DNA of 24,195 nt from a virus: the IMG/VR virus record IMGVR_UViG_3300023296_000303, positions 1 through 24,195 of that record. One strand, 5' to 3'. Within the stretch, counting starts at the first letter, position 1. Every line of letters begins with the position of its first letter. The notes below the pieces were generated by a model. That model made no database searches and was not told the origin of the DNA. It saw nothing but the letters and a program-made list of their open reading frames with translations. Both the position numbers and the translations under genes were made by a program. Shown one piece after another: positions 5,276 through 15,149 of this stretch.

Positions 5276-5665
5276 TTAAAAGGGCACGTCTTCTGAACTT
5301 GCTGCCGCACCACTAACTGCACCGGCACCCTCGCGGGGCTCTGTGAAGATAGAGATGTTACGAACATTAACGTGATTGCGCTTAATTGTCTCGCCATCCT
5401 TCTCGTACTGGTCTGTTTCCCAAGTACCTGTTAGAGTTACCTTTGCGCCCTTGGCGCCGTACTTCATAATACGTTCTGCGGTAGCACCCCAAGCCGTAAA
5501 GTCAATAAAGGTGGTTTGCTTAACAAGTTCCTCTTGACCCTTCTTACGGTGGTAGCGGTTTACTGCTACTGAGCCTACTGCTTTTGTGGTTTCTCCAACT
5601 GGGAAACTACGTGGGTCGTTAGTCATACGCCCGTTTACTGCTAGTTCTGCAAAATCTGTTGCCAT
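5276..5665 (-). CDS. ssb: Single-stranded DNA-binding protein
   Basis: A 129-aa SSB that would coat single-stranded DNA during phage replication and recruit partner enzymes. The OB-fold pattern is present: FAELAVNGRMTNDP at the start, VGSVAVNRYHRKKG, TTFIDFTAWGATAERIMKY with the conserved W-G and hydrophobic core, then GAKVTLTGTWETDQYEKDGE. It closes with the acidic tip SSEDVPF, like the DDIPF tail of bacterial SSBs that binds other replication proteins. The start is the ATG at 5663-5665, because AGGAG sits 7 nt before it; a longer reading from a TTG at 5683 would place that ribosome-binding site inside the coding region. The linker is short and alanine/glycine-rich. It has its own 109-nt upstream spacer with a promoter-like element (5711-5728). 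Confidence 0.93.
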   Translation of the reverse strand: MATDFAELAVNGRMTNDPRSFPVGETTKAVGSVAVNRYHRKKGQEELVKQTTFIDFTAWGATAERIMKYGAKGAKVTLTGTWETDQYEKDGETIKRNHVNVRNISIFTEPREGAGAVSGAAASSEDVPF

Positions 5666-5710: not shown

Positions 5711-5728
5711 CTCTTTAATATACTGTAA
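5711..5728 (-). promoter_or_regulatory. TTACAGTATA element upstream of ssb (promoter or operator candidate)
   Basis: On the minus strand this reads TTACAGTATATTAAAGAG, about 46 nt before the SSB start. The same TTACAGTATAnTAA core (13 of 14 positions) occurs in the 17440-17549 spacer, also just upstream of a gene block. TATATT could act as a -10 box, with GTCACA 15 nt upstream as a poor -35. A site for a phage-specific factor, perhaps the sigma factor encoded here, or a repressor operator is equally possible. Confidence 0.4.
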
Positions 5729-5743
5729 AAGGTGCTGTGTGAC

Positions 5744-5771
5744 CCGGGGAAATTAGTTTAAAATTCCCAGG
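5744..5771 (-). other. Hairpin in the spacer before ssb (terminator or processing candidate)
   Basis: Bases 5744-5754 pair with 5761-5771, giving nine base pairs with two internal mismatches around a 6-nt loop. Next to it, GGTTATTAACC (5770-5780) is a second small palindrome overlapping the stop codon of the HNH gene. No U-rich tract follows on the minus-strand transcript, so intrinsic termination is not convincing. It may mark the 3' end of the upstream transcript or an RNA processing site. Confidence 0.35.
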
Positions 5772-5774
5772 TTA

Positions 5775-5960
5775 TTAACCATTTCTGAGATATTCAATTG
5801 CTGAACGCAACTTCTCAATATCATCATAAAACAGTCCAAGTGCGTGATTGCATTGTTGACAAAGTAGTCCGCGAACATGGCCATATTCATGGCAATGGTC
5901 TACACACAAGGCTTTGGCTTCTTTGCAAATCTTACACTGTCCACCTTGTTGCTTTGACAT
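5775..5960 (-). CDS. Endonuclease VII-family HNH/His-Me core (61 aa, translatable part)
   Basis: This ATG-initiated frame encodes the recognisable catalytic core of the recombination endonuclease VII family (T4 gp49 type, resolves branched DNA). It has C9-x2-C12, then V-D21-H22-C23-H24, and C34-x2-C37-N38, the expected layout of four zinc ligands around the catalytic D-H and N. The helix DDIEKLRSAIEYL closes the domain. A GAGG lies about 11 nt before this ATG and could serve as a weak ribosome-binding site. The family-typical sequence continues upstream in frame (LRKYGITLEDFDK just before this methionine), so this is either the distal part of a broken gene or an internally started minimal nuclease. 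The domain call is firm; its expression as a 61-aa protein is uncertain. Confidence 0.7.
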   Translation of the reverse strand: MSKQQGGQCKICKEAKALCVDHCHEYGHVRGLLCQQCNHALGLFYDDIEKLRSAIEYLRNG

Positions 5961-6206
5961 TTTATCAAAATCCTCAAGGGTGATTCCATATTTTCTAAGA
6001 TACGCACTATTGCGTCTTAGTTTTTCATACTTTTTTGTGCTGCGATACTTCTTGCGGCGCTCTCGGCTAGAGATGGTGTAATTTTTAGAAATACAACTCT
6101 TACATCTGGTATTCCCATCTTTGCCTTTCTAGTTATTGCCACTATTAGTATATTTGATGCTGCAATTATAGCAGATTAGATGTCTAACTTTATTCTTCCA
6201 AGCCAC
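5775..6206 (-). pseudogene. Full-length endonuclease VII-like gene interrupted by an in-frame TAG
   Basis: Reading upstream of the 61-aa core in the same frame gives continuous family-like sequence up to a GTG at 6204-6206, which overlaps the polymerase stop codon by one base. Codon 26 (6129-6131) is TAG. Upstream of it lie 25 residues including L-I-C-Y-N-C; downstream come KGKDGNTRCKSC, a basic linker rich in R, K and Y, and YLRKYGITLEDFDK leading into the core. The first C-x2-C and the later C-K-S-C look like the two halves of one zinc finger, so the amber falls inside that module. With readthrough the product would be 143 aa, close to the 157 aa of T4 gp49. No ATG, GTG or TTG occurs between the amber and 5960. 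TAG is a normal stop in at least four other genes here. A point nonsense mutation, readthrough or a base-calling error could explain it. Confidence 0.6.
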
Positions 6207-9200
6207 TAGTTGAGAATACCTAAGTTGTTTACAATTAATCCGCCACTCTTACTGGTTTGCCCATCTATGAAGACTACCCGACCCTCTTCTAAGAGATTCT
6301 TAAATCTCGCGAATTGAGAAGGGAAGACTACAATTTGGTCATAGATGGCTGTGCCATCCGAACCTGTTAGGAAAGCCATTTCCTGTCCAGGGTTTTTACC
6401 CGTCTTGGTGACGGTCTTGCGGATTCCATCAATGTGAATCGCCGTGCGGACACGCTGAGTCATATGAGAGGGAATCTTCTTAATTTCTTGAAGATTGTGA
6501 GTTACTGTCGAGAAGACTGCGTCAGTCTCATTAACTGAGATATCACAGCCCAGGAAGTCTCTTTCGTACATTGCAATATGTAGGATAGACTCAAACTTGT
6601 CCTTGGACGCATATTCTGAGATTATGCCACGAAGCTTCTCACGGCGACGGATATTGGGGACCACATATTTTGCGACCTTTCTATCAGCTACCTTCGCTTC
6701 ATCAGCCATCTCCTTAATAACTGCCACGACACTCTTACCATCAACCTCTTTAACGACTGAGTTATACTCGCGCTCTGTAAGTGACTTGATTAACTCATAG
6801 TCTGCCAGCATTGTATTACGTGTCAATCCGAAGTGGTCTAGCGCACCTGACTTAATAAGTGCTTCGACTACGTTCTTCTTGATGCCAATGTTTAGTGCTT
6901 GGCTTAAGAACTTATCGTATGTGTCTAGGTCTTTGACTTGTTCGATAAGAGGAATCTGTCCGTCTCCAACACCCTTGATACGTGTCAGCCCGTAACGGAT
7001 AGTCTTCTCGTCAATAATCTTGAAGCGAGCATTACATGTCTTAATAGAAGGCAATGTGATAGTAATACCAAACTCCTTCGCATCATAGATGAACTCGCGT
7101 AACTTATCATGCTCTGAACGGTGAAGGTCACCAACAACGAAGTTACAGTTAGCTTCAAAGAACTCTAGAGGATAGTGATGCTTGAGATATGCTGTCTCAT
7201 AAGTGAGGAATGCATAACAAACACCGTGTGACTTGTTGAAGCCGTATCCAGAGAACTTAACAATCCAAGACCAAAGGGTTTCGCCAACTTCTTCCTTGAC
7301 GTTCTCCTTCTTACAGCCATCCATAAAGACGGCCTTCATCTTGTTCATCAGTTCTTCCTTCTTCTTACCGGCAGCGCGTCGAATGGTATCAGCGGTCTTT
7401 AGGTCAAGACCAGCGATGTCAGTACAGATAAACATTACCTGCTCCTGATAGATACATGCGCCGTGAGTATCGTCTAGAATCTTAGCAAGTTTAGGATGAG
7501 GGTAGTCCGACACCTTCTTGCCATCACGAACGTCGAGGTATTCCTGTGTCTGTCCTGAGTCCATTGCGCCAGGGCGAACAACTGTTACTAAGTCAGAAAG
7601 GTCTTCGATTGAGCGAGGCTTAACTAACTTACTGTACTTGCGTCCTAGTTGTGATTCAACTTGGAATACACACTTGGTCTTTCCTTCATCAAAGATGTTC
7701 TCGTAAACTTCTTGGTCATCTAGTGGAACCTGTTCAATATCAAATTCGTCGTCGTGTCTTTCGCGGACCAACTCCTGGGTTCGTTTAATAATATTCAGTG
7801 TGTTGAGACCCAGGATATCCACCTTTAATAGACCGTAGTCATCAATGGCGTTCATGTCATAGCCACCGATGTAACGCTTATCCTCTGGGTGCCATACCAT
7901 TGGTAGTCCACCATTTGTAAATGGTTCATCACTAATAATGACGGCAGCAGCGTGCTTACCGAATGACTCATAAGTTCCTTCGATTTGATGGGCGATGCCA
8001 AATAGGGCCTTACGGCGCTTTGCTTCCTCTTGAAGTTCTGGTGACATACTGATGGCTTCTTTAAGGTTCTTGGCCTTATGATGAATCATCTTAGTAATTT
8101 CATTCTGTTCTTCAAAAGCACACTGTCCGATATTTAAGACGACCTTAATCGACTTAGCGGCCCCAAACGAACCAAAGGTAATGATTTGGAAGACCGAATC
8201 ACTCCCCCATCTTTCTGACATATACTTAATAATTTCTTCACGTCGTTCTTTTTCAAAGTCTGTGTCGATATCAGGTAAAGCGCCCTCTCGTCCTGCATTA
8301 TAAAATCTTTCCCAGATTAGTCCGTATTCAATTGGGTCAATACCTGTAATACGTGTTAAGTAACAGATTAGTGAACCTGCACCAGAACCTCGTCCTCGAC
8401 CCTTCTTGATGTTGTTATCTCTTGCGAAGTCACAGATGTCTTCAACAATAAGGAAGTAGGATTCTAGGCCCGCATTCTCTACGTCTTTAAGTTCATACGC
8501 GAGACGCTCTCTGTAGTTGGGTTGGTCAATACCAAATTCTATCAGACGAGCTTCACATTTTTGCTTGAGTAACTCAAAGTTCGTTGTACCTTCTGGCGCC
8601 CGGTCGAACTCGGGTAAGCGCAGTCTTCCTAAGACTACGTCTAGTTCAACTTGGGACGCTAGGCTCTCCACATTCGCAATCCACTCAGGTTTTGCCCACT
8701 TCTCAAAGTCGGCCTTCGATTGAATGAAGTAGCCGTCTGAGTCGAGGTGCTCACCGTCCTTGTGAATATAGTTGTGGAAATAGTCGTGTGCTAATGCTTC
8801 TGTTCTATCATTGTAGAATACAGACGCAGTTGGAATAATCTTCAACCCAAGTTTTTCATACGCTTCGCTGACTGCTGGGTCAGTAGTCTCTTGTACTTCA
8901 ATGTAGATATCTTCGAAGTATGGTGTTAAGCTGTCTATGATGCCAACGTTGGTTGTAACAGCTACGATGCCGTCGTTACGCTGACCTTGTAGCTCAAAGC
9001 CACTGTCAGGGTTGGATGATAGTGTGGCGATACGGTTTAGGTTACGTAGACCTTCGTGAGTGGTTGCCCAAAGCGTAATCTGTTCGTGAAACTCATAGCC
9101 AATCATAGGTTGTAATCCAGCGGCCTTACACATCTTAGCTAAGTAGATAGTAGAGTGAATGCTGTGCTGGTCTAAGATAGCAACGTGAGAGTCGCCGTCT

Positions 9201-9283
9201 TTCTTGGCTTTTTCAATAATACTTTGAATATTAGCAATACTGTGCTTGATTGAGTAACGGCAATATGTTCTTAAATTAATCAT
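6206..9283 (-). CDS. dnaE: DNA polymerase III alpha subunit, DnaE type
   Basis: A 1025-aa replicative polymerase of family C. The N-terminus is a PHP domain (1-about 200) whose metal-binding histidines are degenerate: the expected HxH reads R5-T-Y7, so phosphoesterase or proofreading activity is doubtful. The palm has GRGSGAGS (297-304), the catalytic pair in PDIDTDF (D338, D340) and the third aspartate in LLKVDILGL (D489). Further landmarks are CIYQEQVM (610-617), FNKSHGVCYAFLTYETAYLK (682-701), a helix-hairpin-helix near LTRIKGVGDG, and a C-terminal OB fold ending in EEGRVVFIDGQTSK. It is shorter than E. coli DnaE (1160 aa) and lacks an obvious tau-binding tail. The start overlaps the FmdB-like gene by 8 nt. 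No separate proofreading exonuclease is seen in this window. Confidence 0.96.
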   Translation of the reverse strand: MINLRTYCRYSIKHSIANIQSIIEKAKKDGDSHVAILDQHSIHSTIYLAKMCKAAGLQPMIGYEFHEQITLWATTHEGLRNLNRIATLSSNPDSGFELQGQRNDGIVAVTTNVGIIDSLTPYFEDIYIEVQETTDPAVSEAYEKLGLKIIPTASVFYNDRTEALAHDYFHNYIHKDGEHLDSDGYFIQSKADFEKWAKPEWIANVESLASQVELDVVLGRLRLPEFDRAPEGTTNFELLKQKCEARLIEFGIDQPNYRERLAYELKDVENAGLESYFLIVEDICDFARDNNIKKGRGRGSGAGSLICYLTRITGIDPIEYGLIWERFYNAGREGALPDIDTDFEKERREEIIKYMSERWGSDSVFQIITFGSFGAAKSIKVVLNIGQCAFEEQNEITKMIHHKAKNLKEAISMSPELQEEAKRRKALFGIAHQIEGTYESFGKHAAAVIISDEPFTNGGLPMVWHPEDKRYIGGYDMNAIDDYGLLKVDILGLNTLNIIKRTQELVRERHDDEFDIEQVPLDDQEVYENIFDEGKTKCVFQVESQLGRKYSKLVKPRSIEDLSDLVTVVRPGAMDSGQTQEYLDVRDGKKVSDYPHPKLAKILDDTHGACIYQEQVMFICTDIAGLDLKTADTIRRAAGKKKEELMNKMKAVFMDGCKKENVKEEVGETLWSWIVKFSGYGFNKSHGVCYAFLTYETAYLKHHYPLEFFEANCNFVVGDLHRSEHDKLREFIYDAKEFGITITLPSIKTCNARFKIIDEKTIRYGLTRIKGVGDGQIPLIEQVKDLDTYDKFLSQALNIGIKKNVVEALIKSGALDHFGLTRNTMLADYELIKSLTEREYNSVVKEVDGKSVVAVIKEMADEAKVADRKVAKYVVPNIRRREKLRGIISEYASKDKFESILHIAMYERDFLGCDISVNETDAVFSTVTHNLQEIKKIPSHMTQRVRTAIHIDGIRKTVTKTGKNPGQEMAFLTGSDGTAIYDQIVVFPSQFARFKNLLEEGRVVFIDGQTSKSGGLIVNNLGILN

Positions 9284-9551
9284 GTTTTTCTTTCATCTTT
9301 CGGATTCGTTCTTTACTGGCGTCCTTGTACTTTTGGCTATTTGTGTCAACGCCTGCTGCATCTAATAAGTCTCCAATGGTTTCTCCTTGTAGTGCCACGC
9401 CTTTGATGATGGGTGTTCCGCCGCAGGAGATTTGATATGGAGCTTTCGCATCGCACTCACAACATAGTATACTGTCAGGTCGCTCATCGAACCCGCAGAA
9501 AAAATCGGTAATATGGGCGCATTCGGAGCAACGGAATTCGTATGTGGGCAT
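9276..9551 (-). CDS. FmdB-type zinc ribbon protein
   Basis: A 91-aa protein beginning MPTYEFRCSECAHITDFFCG, the hallmark of the FmdB/CxxC zinc ribbon family: C8-x2-C11 at the start and a second C-x2-C (C-C-E-C) about 22 residues later, then a glycine-rich turn. The rest is a charged tail ending in KERIRKMKEKHD. Small zinc ribbons of this kind are common in phages, and their role is not established. The ATG at 9549-9551 is preferred over an upstream in-frame start because AAGGAAGG lies 9-10 nt before it. The 77-nt spacer upstream holds a good promoter candidate (9591-9618), so it may head the transcript carrying the polymerase gene, with whose start it overlaps by 8 nt. Confidence 0.8.
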   Translation of the reverse strand: MPTYEFRCSECAHITDFFCGFDERPDSILCCECDAKAPYQISCGGTPIIKGVALQGETIGDLLDAAGVDTNSQKYKDASKERIRKMKEKHD

Positions 9552-9590
9552 TAAATTTTTATCCTTCCTTCTTTTAGTAATATCCCTACA

Positions 9591-9618
9591 ATCATATAGG
9601 TTATTCCAAGACAATCAA
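9591..9618 (-). promoter_or_regulatory. Sigma-70-like promoter upstream of the FmdB-like gene
   Basis: On the minus strand TTGATT (9613-9618) is separated by 16 nt from TATGAT (9591-9596), matching four of six and five of six consensus positions. It lies in the only non-coding gap of this part of the operon and would give a leader of about 33 nt before the ATG at 9551. It could be an internal promoter boosting polymerase gene expression. Found by eye, not by scoring. Confidence 0.45.
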
Positions 9619-9628
9619 ATACGACAGA

Positions 9629-9733
9629 TTACAGTGTAACTATGCCTAGAAATATCATTGATGCGTTAGTTGGTATACCAAGTGCTAGTATAATAAGGCC
9701 TCCAAGGAACCATATCCACCAACGCTTATCCAC
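9629..9733 (-). CDS. 34-aa single-pass membrane peptide
   Basis: A small reading frame starting at GTG 9731-9733, preceded by AAGGAG with 6 nt spacing, encodes a 34-residue peptide. It begins with a charged MDKR, then a hydrophobic stretch WWIWFLGGLIILALGIP, a short polar turn TNAS, and a hydrophobic end MIFLGIVTL. One or two membrane-inserted segments are plausible. It overlaps the end of the nuclease gene by 8 nt, as other real gene pairs here do, and fills most of what would otherwise be a 174-nt gap. No family is recognised. Small phage membrane peptides can act as inhibitors of host functions, spanin or holin-like proteins, but position inside the replication operon gives no direct clue. 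The coding call rests on ribosome-binding site, overlap and the coherent hydrophobic profile. Confidence 0.6.
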   Translation of the reverse strand: MDKRWWIWFLGGLIILALGIPTNASMIFLGIVTL

Positions 9734-10811
9734 CGAATTTCTCCTTAAAAATAGGCCACTGCTTTTTACAGACTTGGGCATCACACATTACTTTACATTT
9801 CCATGAGGATTCTGGGTCCTTGCCGTCTCCTTGAACCATTGTACGTCTGACCATCTGAGGTCCCGCAATAGACTCCCAATACTTAACTACCTGCTGACGA
9901 GTAAGCTCGTCTTCTTCTTCTGTGAACGAATAGCTTAGTGGACTTGTCCTTGCATAGTCGAACGTCACAAGGTATTCCTTATAGCCAGGGAACAGTTTAC
10001 GTGCCGCGTAAGAGTATAGCTTAACTTGAATGTCTTCGCTAAACTCATCAAACGATGGCTTCCACATTCCAAACTTGTGGTCGATAATATGACAAGTGTC
10101 TGGGTCTTCCTCAACTACTAGGTCGATGAATCCGGTTGAACGCATATCATTGCCGTGAATATCTTGCATTCCAAAGTCAATGTTAAATGCTGCTTCAATA
10201 CCAAGAATCTTCTTGTTTCGGAGAATAGCATCGTGTCGCGCTACATACTTGGTCATTATTTTAATGCTCTCGTGATAAAGTCCCTCTGGGCAACCTTGGC
10301 AACCGCGAGTATTCATGTACGCAAGTGTTTCACCTGTGCGTTTACATAGTGCGTCTTCCTTACCGCTTTGACAAGAGATACACCATTTCTCTGGGTCTGT
10401 AACATCCTTTGGCTTTGCGATATCAAAGATAGCAAAGTCAGGGTCCGTCTGTCCATTGTCCGTGCCACGCTTATAAATACGCTTCAATTCATTCTGCCAG
10501 TTGAGCCACTTCTTTGTATTTGTGGCAGATACCTTCTTACCGTCCTCAGTGGTACCGCGAATGGCTAATGCATAGTTCTCCATGATTTGGTGAAGTGCGG
10601 TTCCATGATTGGCTCCCCAGTTACTACGTAAGGTTACTCTGCTGTAATCTTCGCCACCACAATGTGGGCACTGCTTAGGTTCAGTCTGCTCTACTGTATA
10701 GAAGGTCTCTTCACAGTCATTACATTCCTTTAGCATATAGTTTAATATATACTTAAAATTACAGTGTTCGAATGTCTTGATGCGTGATGCACTAATGCTT
10801 TTAATGTCCAA
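9726..10811 (-). CDS. PD-(D/E)XK nuclease, RecB/AddB/Cas4-like, with cysteine clusters
   Basis: A 361-aa nuclease likely acting on DNA ends during recombination or host DNA breakdown. ISASRIKTFEHCNFKYIL (6-23) is the family's N-terminal motif with C17. The active-site series follows: H74 in GTALHQ, D230 in TGFIDLVV, D244-H-K246 in HIIDHKFG, and the Q-x3-Y motif IQVKLYSYA (261-269). C339, C343 and C348 near the C-terminus could join C17 to bind an iron-sulfur cluster, as in AddB and Cas4. Two further cysteine groups are inserted: C30-x2-C33 with C48-x2-C51 (zinc ribbon-like) and C144, C147, C156, C171, C174. It overlaps the dNMP kinase gene by 11 nt. There is no CRISPR context, so a Cas4 role is unlikely. 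Confidence 0.85.
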   Translation of the reverse strand: MDIKSISASRIKTFEHCNFKYILNYMLKECNDCEETFYTVEQTEPKQCPHCGGEDYSRVTLRSNWGANHGTALHQIMENYALAIRGTTEDGKKVSATNTKKWLNWQNELKRIYKRGTDNGQTDPDFAIFDIAKPKDVTDPEKWCISCQSGKEDALCKRTGETLAYMNTRGCQGCPEGLYHESIKIMTKYVARHDAILRNKKILGIEAAFNIDFGMQDIHGNDMRSTGFIDLVVEEDPDTCHIIDHKFGMWKPSFDEFSEDIQVKLYSYAARKLFPGYKEYLVTFDYARTSPLSYSFTEEEDELTRQQVVKYWESIAGPQMVRRTMVQGDGKDPESSWKCKVMCDAQVCKKQWPIFKEKFGG

Positions 10812-14729: not shown

Positions 14730-15149
14730 TTATAATGCCTCTGTAATAATCTCTTTTAATTCTTCTACAGACCATTCATCGAAGTCTCCTTCGCGGACGA
14801 CAATCAGCGTTACGTCGTTAAGGTCTGCAATTTTTTGTTTGCGCTGGTCTGCTACTATTTGCTTTTCGAAGCCAGCCTTTGTTTGGTGAAAGAATGGCAC
14901 GAACTCATCATGTTGTCGTCCGTGAAATTCAAATGCCATGTTTTGTCCCGGAACCCAAAAGTCCCAAGATAAGTTGCCACAGTTAGGTAGTGGATAGTCC
15001 TCGTATGTAGGTCCTCTGCCATAGATTTTGCAGATGAGTCTACCAAGCTTCCACTGAGCGTTAGAGCGACTTTCAGTCTTTCTCTTTACTCCGAACTGTG
15101 AGCGTAATTCAAATGTGTTTTCCTTTTCGTTGATATCAATAAATTTCAA
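14730..15149 (-). CDS. Small PD-(D/E)XK-like (Vsr/DUF559-type) nuclease
   Basis: A 139-aa protein with the core of a restriction-endonuclease-fold nuclease. LSWDFWVPGQNMAFEFHGRQ (60-79) places D63 and E74-x-H76 at the metal-binding positions, followed by H80. KAGFEKQIVADQRKQKIADL (91-110) gives the D-x2-K helix typical of Vsr and DUF559-type proteins, then the strand TLIVVREGD. The overall shape matches small single-domain nucleases often found in phage replication clusters. Substrate preference is unknown; nicking, junction or mismatch cleavage are options. It directly abuts recA (its ATG follows the recA stop with no gap) and precedes dnaB by 3 nt. Confidence 0.7.
   Translation of the reverse strand: MKFIDINEKENTFELRSQFGVKRKTESRSNAQWKLGRLICKIYGRGPTYEDYPLPNCGNLSWDFWVPGQNMAFEFHGRQHDEFVPFFHQTKAGFEKQIVADQRKQKIADLNDVTLIVVREGDFDEWSVEELKEIITEAL

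Follow-up and report, generated by a model that had tools for sequence, protein, structure and literature searches.

What becomes of an endonuclease VII-like gene whose reading frame is cut by an amber codon inside its N-terminal zinc module? We addressed this question for a locus in a single metagenome-assembled IMG/VR record. The window, by which we mean the stretch of DNA analyzed, is the whole record of 24,195 bases. A first-pass annotation of the locus had offered three interpretations: a recently broken gene, a minimal nuclease made from an internal start, or a full-length form made by amber suppression. The first was borne out best, by a sense residue in relatives, an otherwise intact frame and the optional nature of the insertion, while the second found weak backing and the third none. 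We propose, with a probability of roughly 0.7, that the locus is a free-standing gene of the DHHRN homing-endonuclease type, located after dnaE, which was inactivated by a recent premature amber codon.

Translation of the minus strand confirmed the interrupted frame (Table 1). It runs from a GTG at 6206, which overlaps the TAG stop of dnaE (6206-6208) by one base, to a stop at 5775-5777, and comprises 143 residues plus the final stop when the single internal TAG (codon 26, 6129-6131) is read through. As had been annotated, this TAG separates two cysteine pairs, C-Y-N-C (residues 12-15) before it and C-K-S-C (residues 35-38) after it (read-through numbering, here and below), and no in-frame ATG, GTG or TTG was found between the TAG and the ATG at 5960. 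None was found between GTG 6206 and the TAG either. The uninterrupted frame with its own start that defines a working endonuclease gene is lacking, given the TAG at codon 26. By base composition, the occurrence of at most one stop in the 81 upstream codons has a probability of about 0.04. If the 61-aa ORF were the sole gene, 245 nt would be left non-coding ahead of it, more than in any other gap of the window. Codon usage upstream of ATG 5960 gave no discrimination because the predicted protein is rich in Lys, Arg and Asn. A different frame for the N-terminus was rejected, with nothing family-like present there.

Table 1. Features of the interrupted gene and its surroundings (positions in the window; L002, the nearest phage found, is record IMGVR_UViG_3300033067_000724)
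Feature	Position	Strand	Remark
DnaE-like DNA polymerase III alpha gene	6206..9283	-	1025 aa; directly upstream; TAG stop
First 25 codons of the interrupted frame	6132..6206	-	Translation; GTG start, C-x2-C; weakly family-like alone
In-frame amber TAG, codon 26	6129..6131	-	Translation; sense residues in relatives' column
56 codons from the TAG to the internal ATG	5961..6128	-	C-K-S-C, Y-G-I-T motif, helices rich in Lys/Arg
61-aa ORF from the internal ATG	5775..5960	-	Beta-beta-alpha-metal Endonuclease_7 domain
TTTACAGTATATTA (= TTTAYAGTATATTA)	5716..5729	-	Exact match upstream of ssb in L002 (8129-8142)
ssb (single-strand binding protein)	5276..5665	-	Downstream; ATG 5665

The original assignment to the gp49/endonuclease VII family was right at the domain level. 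Against Pfam PF02945 (Endonuclease_7; curated cut-off, 23.6 bits), the read-through product scored 83 bits and the 61-aa form 74.4 bits, which places the protein in this family. By sequence comparison, the C-terminal half is certain to represent an Endonuclease_7 domain. The zinc residues C91, C94, C116 and C119 and the catalytic residues D103, H104, H106, R112 and N120 are all invariant in an 11-sequence alignment with relatives (A4), and the 61-aa ORF retains the complete set, as the first-pass annotation had stated. The DHHRN, or Endo VII, motif (C-x2-4-C, D-H-x-H, R, C-x2-C, N) is thus present; it occupies residues 78-142 of 143, and the protein stops where the Endonuclease_7 domain ends (position 82 of 82).

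Clear family resemblance extends over the sequence from the TAG to ATG 5960, a stretch that also holds most of the helix preceding the catalytic domain but no usual start. The score against PHROG_2633 (endonuclease VII) rose from 85.2 to 108.8 bits once residues 28-82 were added; therefore, we consider this stretch to be coding in origin. Family resemblance is weak in the 25 codons preceding the TAG. They scored 3.0 bits against a profile of the module alone, a value that 295 of 5000 shuffles (6%) equaled or exceeded, and they lack the aromatic residue usual in the family, while the 19-residue spacing of their C-x2-C falls inside the range of the relatives (15-26). Because of this weak match, the position of the true N-terminus is uncertain. 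The fold predicted for the read-through product (mean pLDDT 89) begins with a strand pair (residues 9-20); next come a loop predicted with lower confidence, which surrounds the TAG, three helices (36-55, 58-73 and 77-86) and the beta-beta-alpha-metal fold. Its best matches in the PDB, T4 endonuclease VII and Hpy99I, were weak (E about 0.015-0.02); by sequence, the best PDB match was Hpy99I (E = 1.2e-4).

We fetched 80 relatives from viral contigs and 31 from genomes of bacteria and archaea and inspected the residue at codon 26. All 26 aligned relatives that have the four cysteines of the module carry a sense residue in the TAG column (K in 13, R in 8, N in 2, S in 2 and T in 1); hence, the residue is Lys or Arg in 21 of 26, and a stop occurs in none. 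A module cut by an in-frame stop was likewise seen in none of the 80 viral relatives. Since this column holds K, R, N, S or T, the interrupted codon corresponds to a variable, usually basic loop residue, which is neither a zinc ligand nor catalytic.

The frame continues intact past the TAG, as would be expected if the host or the phage made the 143-aa form by suppressing or recoding the amber codon. A variable, non-catalytic residue at codon 26 argues against such readthrough. Additionally, TAG serves as the stop of four genes in the window, namely dnaE and three others, each with another stop within 10 codons, and the other long genes in the window are all devoid of internal TAG codons. A suppressor tRNA had been suggested as a check, and neither the window nor the 66-kb record of L002, both of them fragments, yielded any tRNA. 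With four genes ending in TAG and no tRNA in these incomplete records, the phage does not resemble TAG-recoded phages (code 15 type). We thus found no support for amber suppression and regard suppression or recoding as very improbable.

The internal start could instead yield a functional 61-aa minimal nuclease (or a regulator). Every catalytic and zinc residue lies inside the 61-aa ORF, and a GAGGA is located 10 nt upstream of ATG 5960, with a duplex energy of -6.0 kcal/mol, a value that falls in the range spanned by real genes of the window. A possible precedent is T4 gene 49, for which two nested proteins are reported (Barth et al. 1988, cited in PMC2988022). However, GAGGA encodes the Glu-Asp of the family and for this reason may be incidental. 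In 107 of the 108 relatives with a locatable VRGLLC motif, the first start lies at least 66 residues ahead of this motif, compared with 28 residues in the 61-aa form. The column of ATG 5960 (Met 83) contains Met in 62 of 102 relatives, where it is an ordinary interior helix residue. Further, ATG 5960 falls inside the predicted helix 77-86, and the 61-aa form lacks positions 1-18 of PF02945. Given that the product would lack most of this helix, a purpose-built minimal nuclease is unlikely, whereas the plausible Shine-Dalgarno sequence makes some translation from ATG 5960 possible. In our assessment, a functional product from this start is improbable, and it is a little less probable again that the 61-aa protein is both made and active as a minimal Endo VII-type nuclease that lost its N-terminal zinc module.

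The internal-start interpretation would have gained from relatives that begin at the equivalent of position 5960, and only 1 of 108 does so. This sole exception (L161, Novosphingobium) starts 27 residues before the motif, although the helix motif is present in the same frame farther upstream; its Endo VII-like ORF looks like a fragment. The ORF spans positions 1648-1836 of L161, and a terminase-like ORF ends just upstream of it. The table of relatives can also serve as an annotation aid, in that Endo VII ORFs starting at the interior methionine of 'M-x3-Q' are likely to be fragments.

The genes of the window lie on the minus strand; among their products are a DnaE-like polymerase, a single-strand binding protein, a sigma factor, a primase, a DnaB-like helicase, a UvsX-like recombinase and glycosyltransferases. 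The DnaE of L002 is 66% identical to that of the window. In L002, dnaE ends at 8108 and the open frame of ssb begins at 8173, without a gene between them; the interrupted gene is accordingly optional between two conserved genes, as judged from the empty site of this one relative. The sequence shared upstream of ssb marks the downstream edge of the insertion and may be an ssb promoter element for a phage sigma factor. The only full Endo VII match of L002 is an intact 158-aa gene at 9296-9772, between its sigma-factor and glycosyltransferase genes. At the corresponding site, the window has no insertion, and the sigma-factor and glycosyltransferase genes overlap by 8 bases. Each of the two related phages therefore has an Endo VII gene of its own at a site that is unoccupied in the other, and the two genes differ. 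The two nucleases are 36% identical, compared with 66-68% for the shared core proteins, and for this reason look like separate acquisitions. Such reciprocal presence and absence would fit the behavior of free-standing mobile endonuclease genes (F-CphI and relatives, PMC6083498).

We searched further for the same insertion in other phages. No close DNA relative carrying it was found, and the whole window had no megablast match among phages. L002 was again the only relative recovered when viral contigs were searched further with dnaE, and no Endo VII motif was present in the examined stretches of the relatives collected through the glycosyltransferase gene (L097-L105). Rfam gave no match to a group I intron or any other known RNA in the window. 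A hairpin following the gene (about 5742-5772) was no better than shuffled sequences (z = -1.2) and was dropped as a candidate terminator.

The layout of the predicted protein agrees more with the homing and restriction branch of the family than with that of the T4 resolvase (PMC6083498). In that study, proteins with a C-terminal Endo VII motif fall in the endonuclease clade and not in the resolvase clade, and they include free-standing optional genes between conserved genes. With its motif at the C-terminus and a separate N-terminal part, the window protein groups with the DHHRN homing endonucleases under this clade rule. It shares with F-CphI of cyanophage S-PM2 (PMC6083498) the C-terminal catalytic motif with all five residues (D, H, H, R and N), and both are encoded by free-standing, optional genes that adjoin a conserved gene of the phage. 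In contrast to F-CphI, the window copy contains a nonsense codon, has no group I intron nearby and is known here from sequence alone.

The Holliday junction resolvase T4 endonuclease VII (gp49) has the same catalytic and zinc residues and gave the best PDB fold match (1en7, E = 0.015). Its motif is N-terminal and followed by resolvase domains, whereas the motif of the window protein is preceded by an N-terminal zinc ribbon and the resolvase domains are absent; hence, the protein is not a T4-type resolvase. The restriction endonuclease Hpy99I, the best PDB match by sequence, likewise has its beta-beta-alpha-metal domain at the C-terminus, but the window gene lacks an adjacent methylase gene and sits between phage replication genes. 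The L002 gene has the same architecture and is also an optional insertion; in contrast to the window gene, it is longer, uninterrupted by a stop and located elsewhere in the genome.

Taken as a nonsense-silenced gene, the locus would represent an optional Endo VII-motif gene inserted into the genome of an uncultivated tailed phage, directly behind the DNA polymerase gene. In its intact form, the 143-aa protein would start with a four-cysteine zinc ribbon and basic helices, a part that probably binds DNA, and end with a beta-beta-alpha-metal nuclease domain. The amber codon in the zinc-ribbon loop would end translation after 25 residues, so that the full nuclease would not be made. Endonuclease genes of this type are dispensable to the phage, and because of this, their loss is tolerated. 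Whereas the frame, the TAG, the domain, the empty site in L002 and the sense residue in relatives were observed, we infer the mobility of the gene, its homing function, the lack of product and the recency of the break. As the catalytic part is still intact, the break would be either recent or an error of the single assembled record. Since no close DNA relative of the insertion was found, the term recent is based on the otherwise intact frame.

The main rival to a nonsense-silenced gene is an assembly or sequencing error, or a minority variant, with the population carrying the intact 143-aa gene. This would be in line with the origin of the window from one metagenome-assembled record, with the sense residue at codon 26 in every aligned relative that has the module, and with the intactness of the remaining frame. 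On the other hand, none of the roughly two dozen genes in the window shows a second break, so the record looks clean, and degeneration of such optional genes is known. We therefore consider an error or variant unlikely. The case is an ordinary one, a damaged representative of a known kind of nuclease, with no sign of recoding or of a new type of enzyme. It adds another optional phage nuclease gene that was gained and apparently lost, and is relevant to the movement and decay of such genes.

A second nuclease-like gene of the window (14730-15149, minus strand) adjoins the UvsX-like recombinase gene and encodes a protein of 139 aa that matches HNH/homing endonuclease families in PHROG. Its conservation in L002 (68% identity) makes a core nuclease more likely than a mobile one. 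A neighborhood similar to that of the interrupted gene was observed in Synechococcus phage S-CBS2 (L009), where an Endo VII gene lies beside ssb and a sigma-factor gene. Among the relatives found via the glycosyltransferase gene, four (L117, L131, L133 and L126) encode DnaE in two ORFs, split near residues 510-515 of the window DnaE. About 1 kb separates the halves and contains a small ORF and an ORF that, by eye, resembles a DnaQ-type exonuclease; visual inspection of the split junction revealed no intein in these four. Unlike theirs, the DnaE of the window is a single chain.
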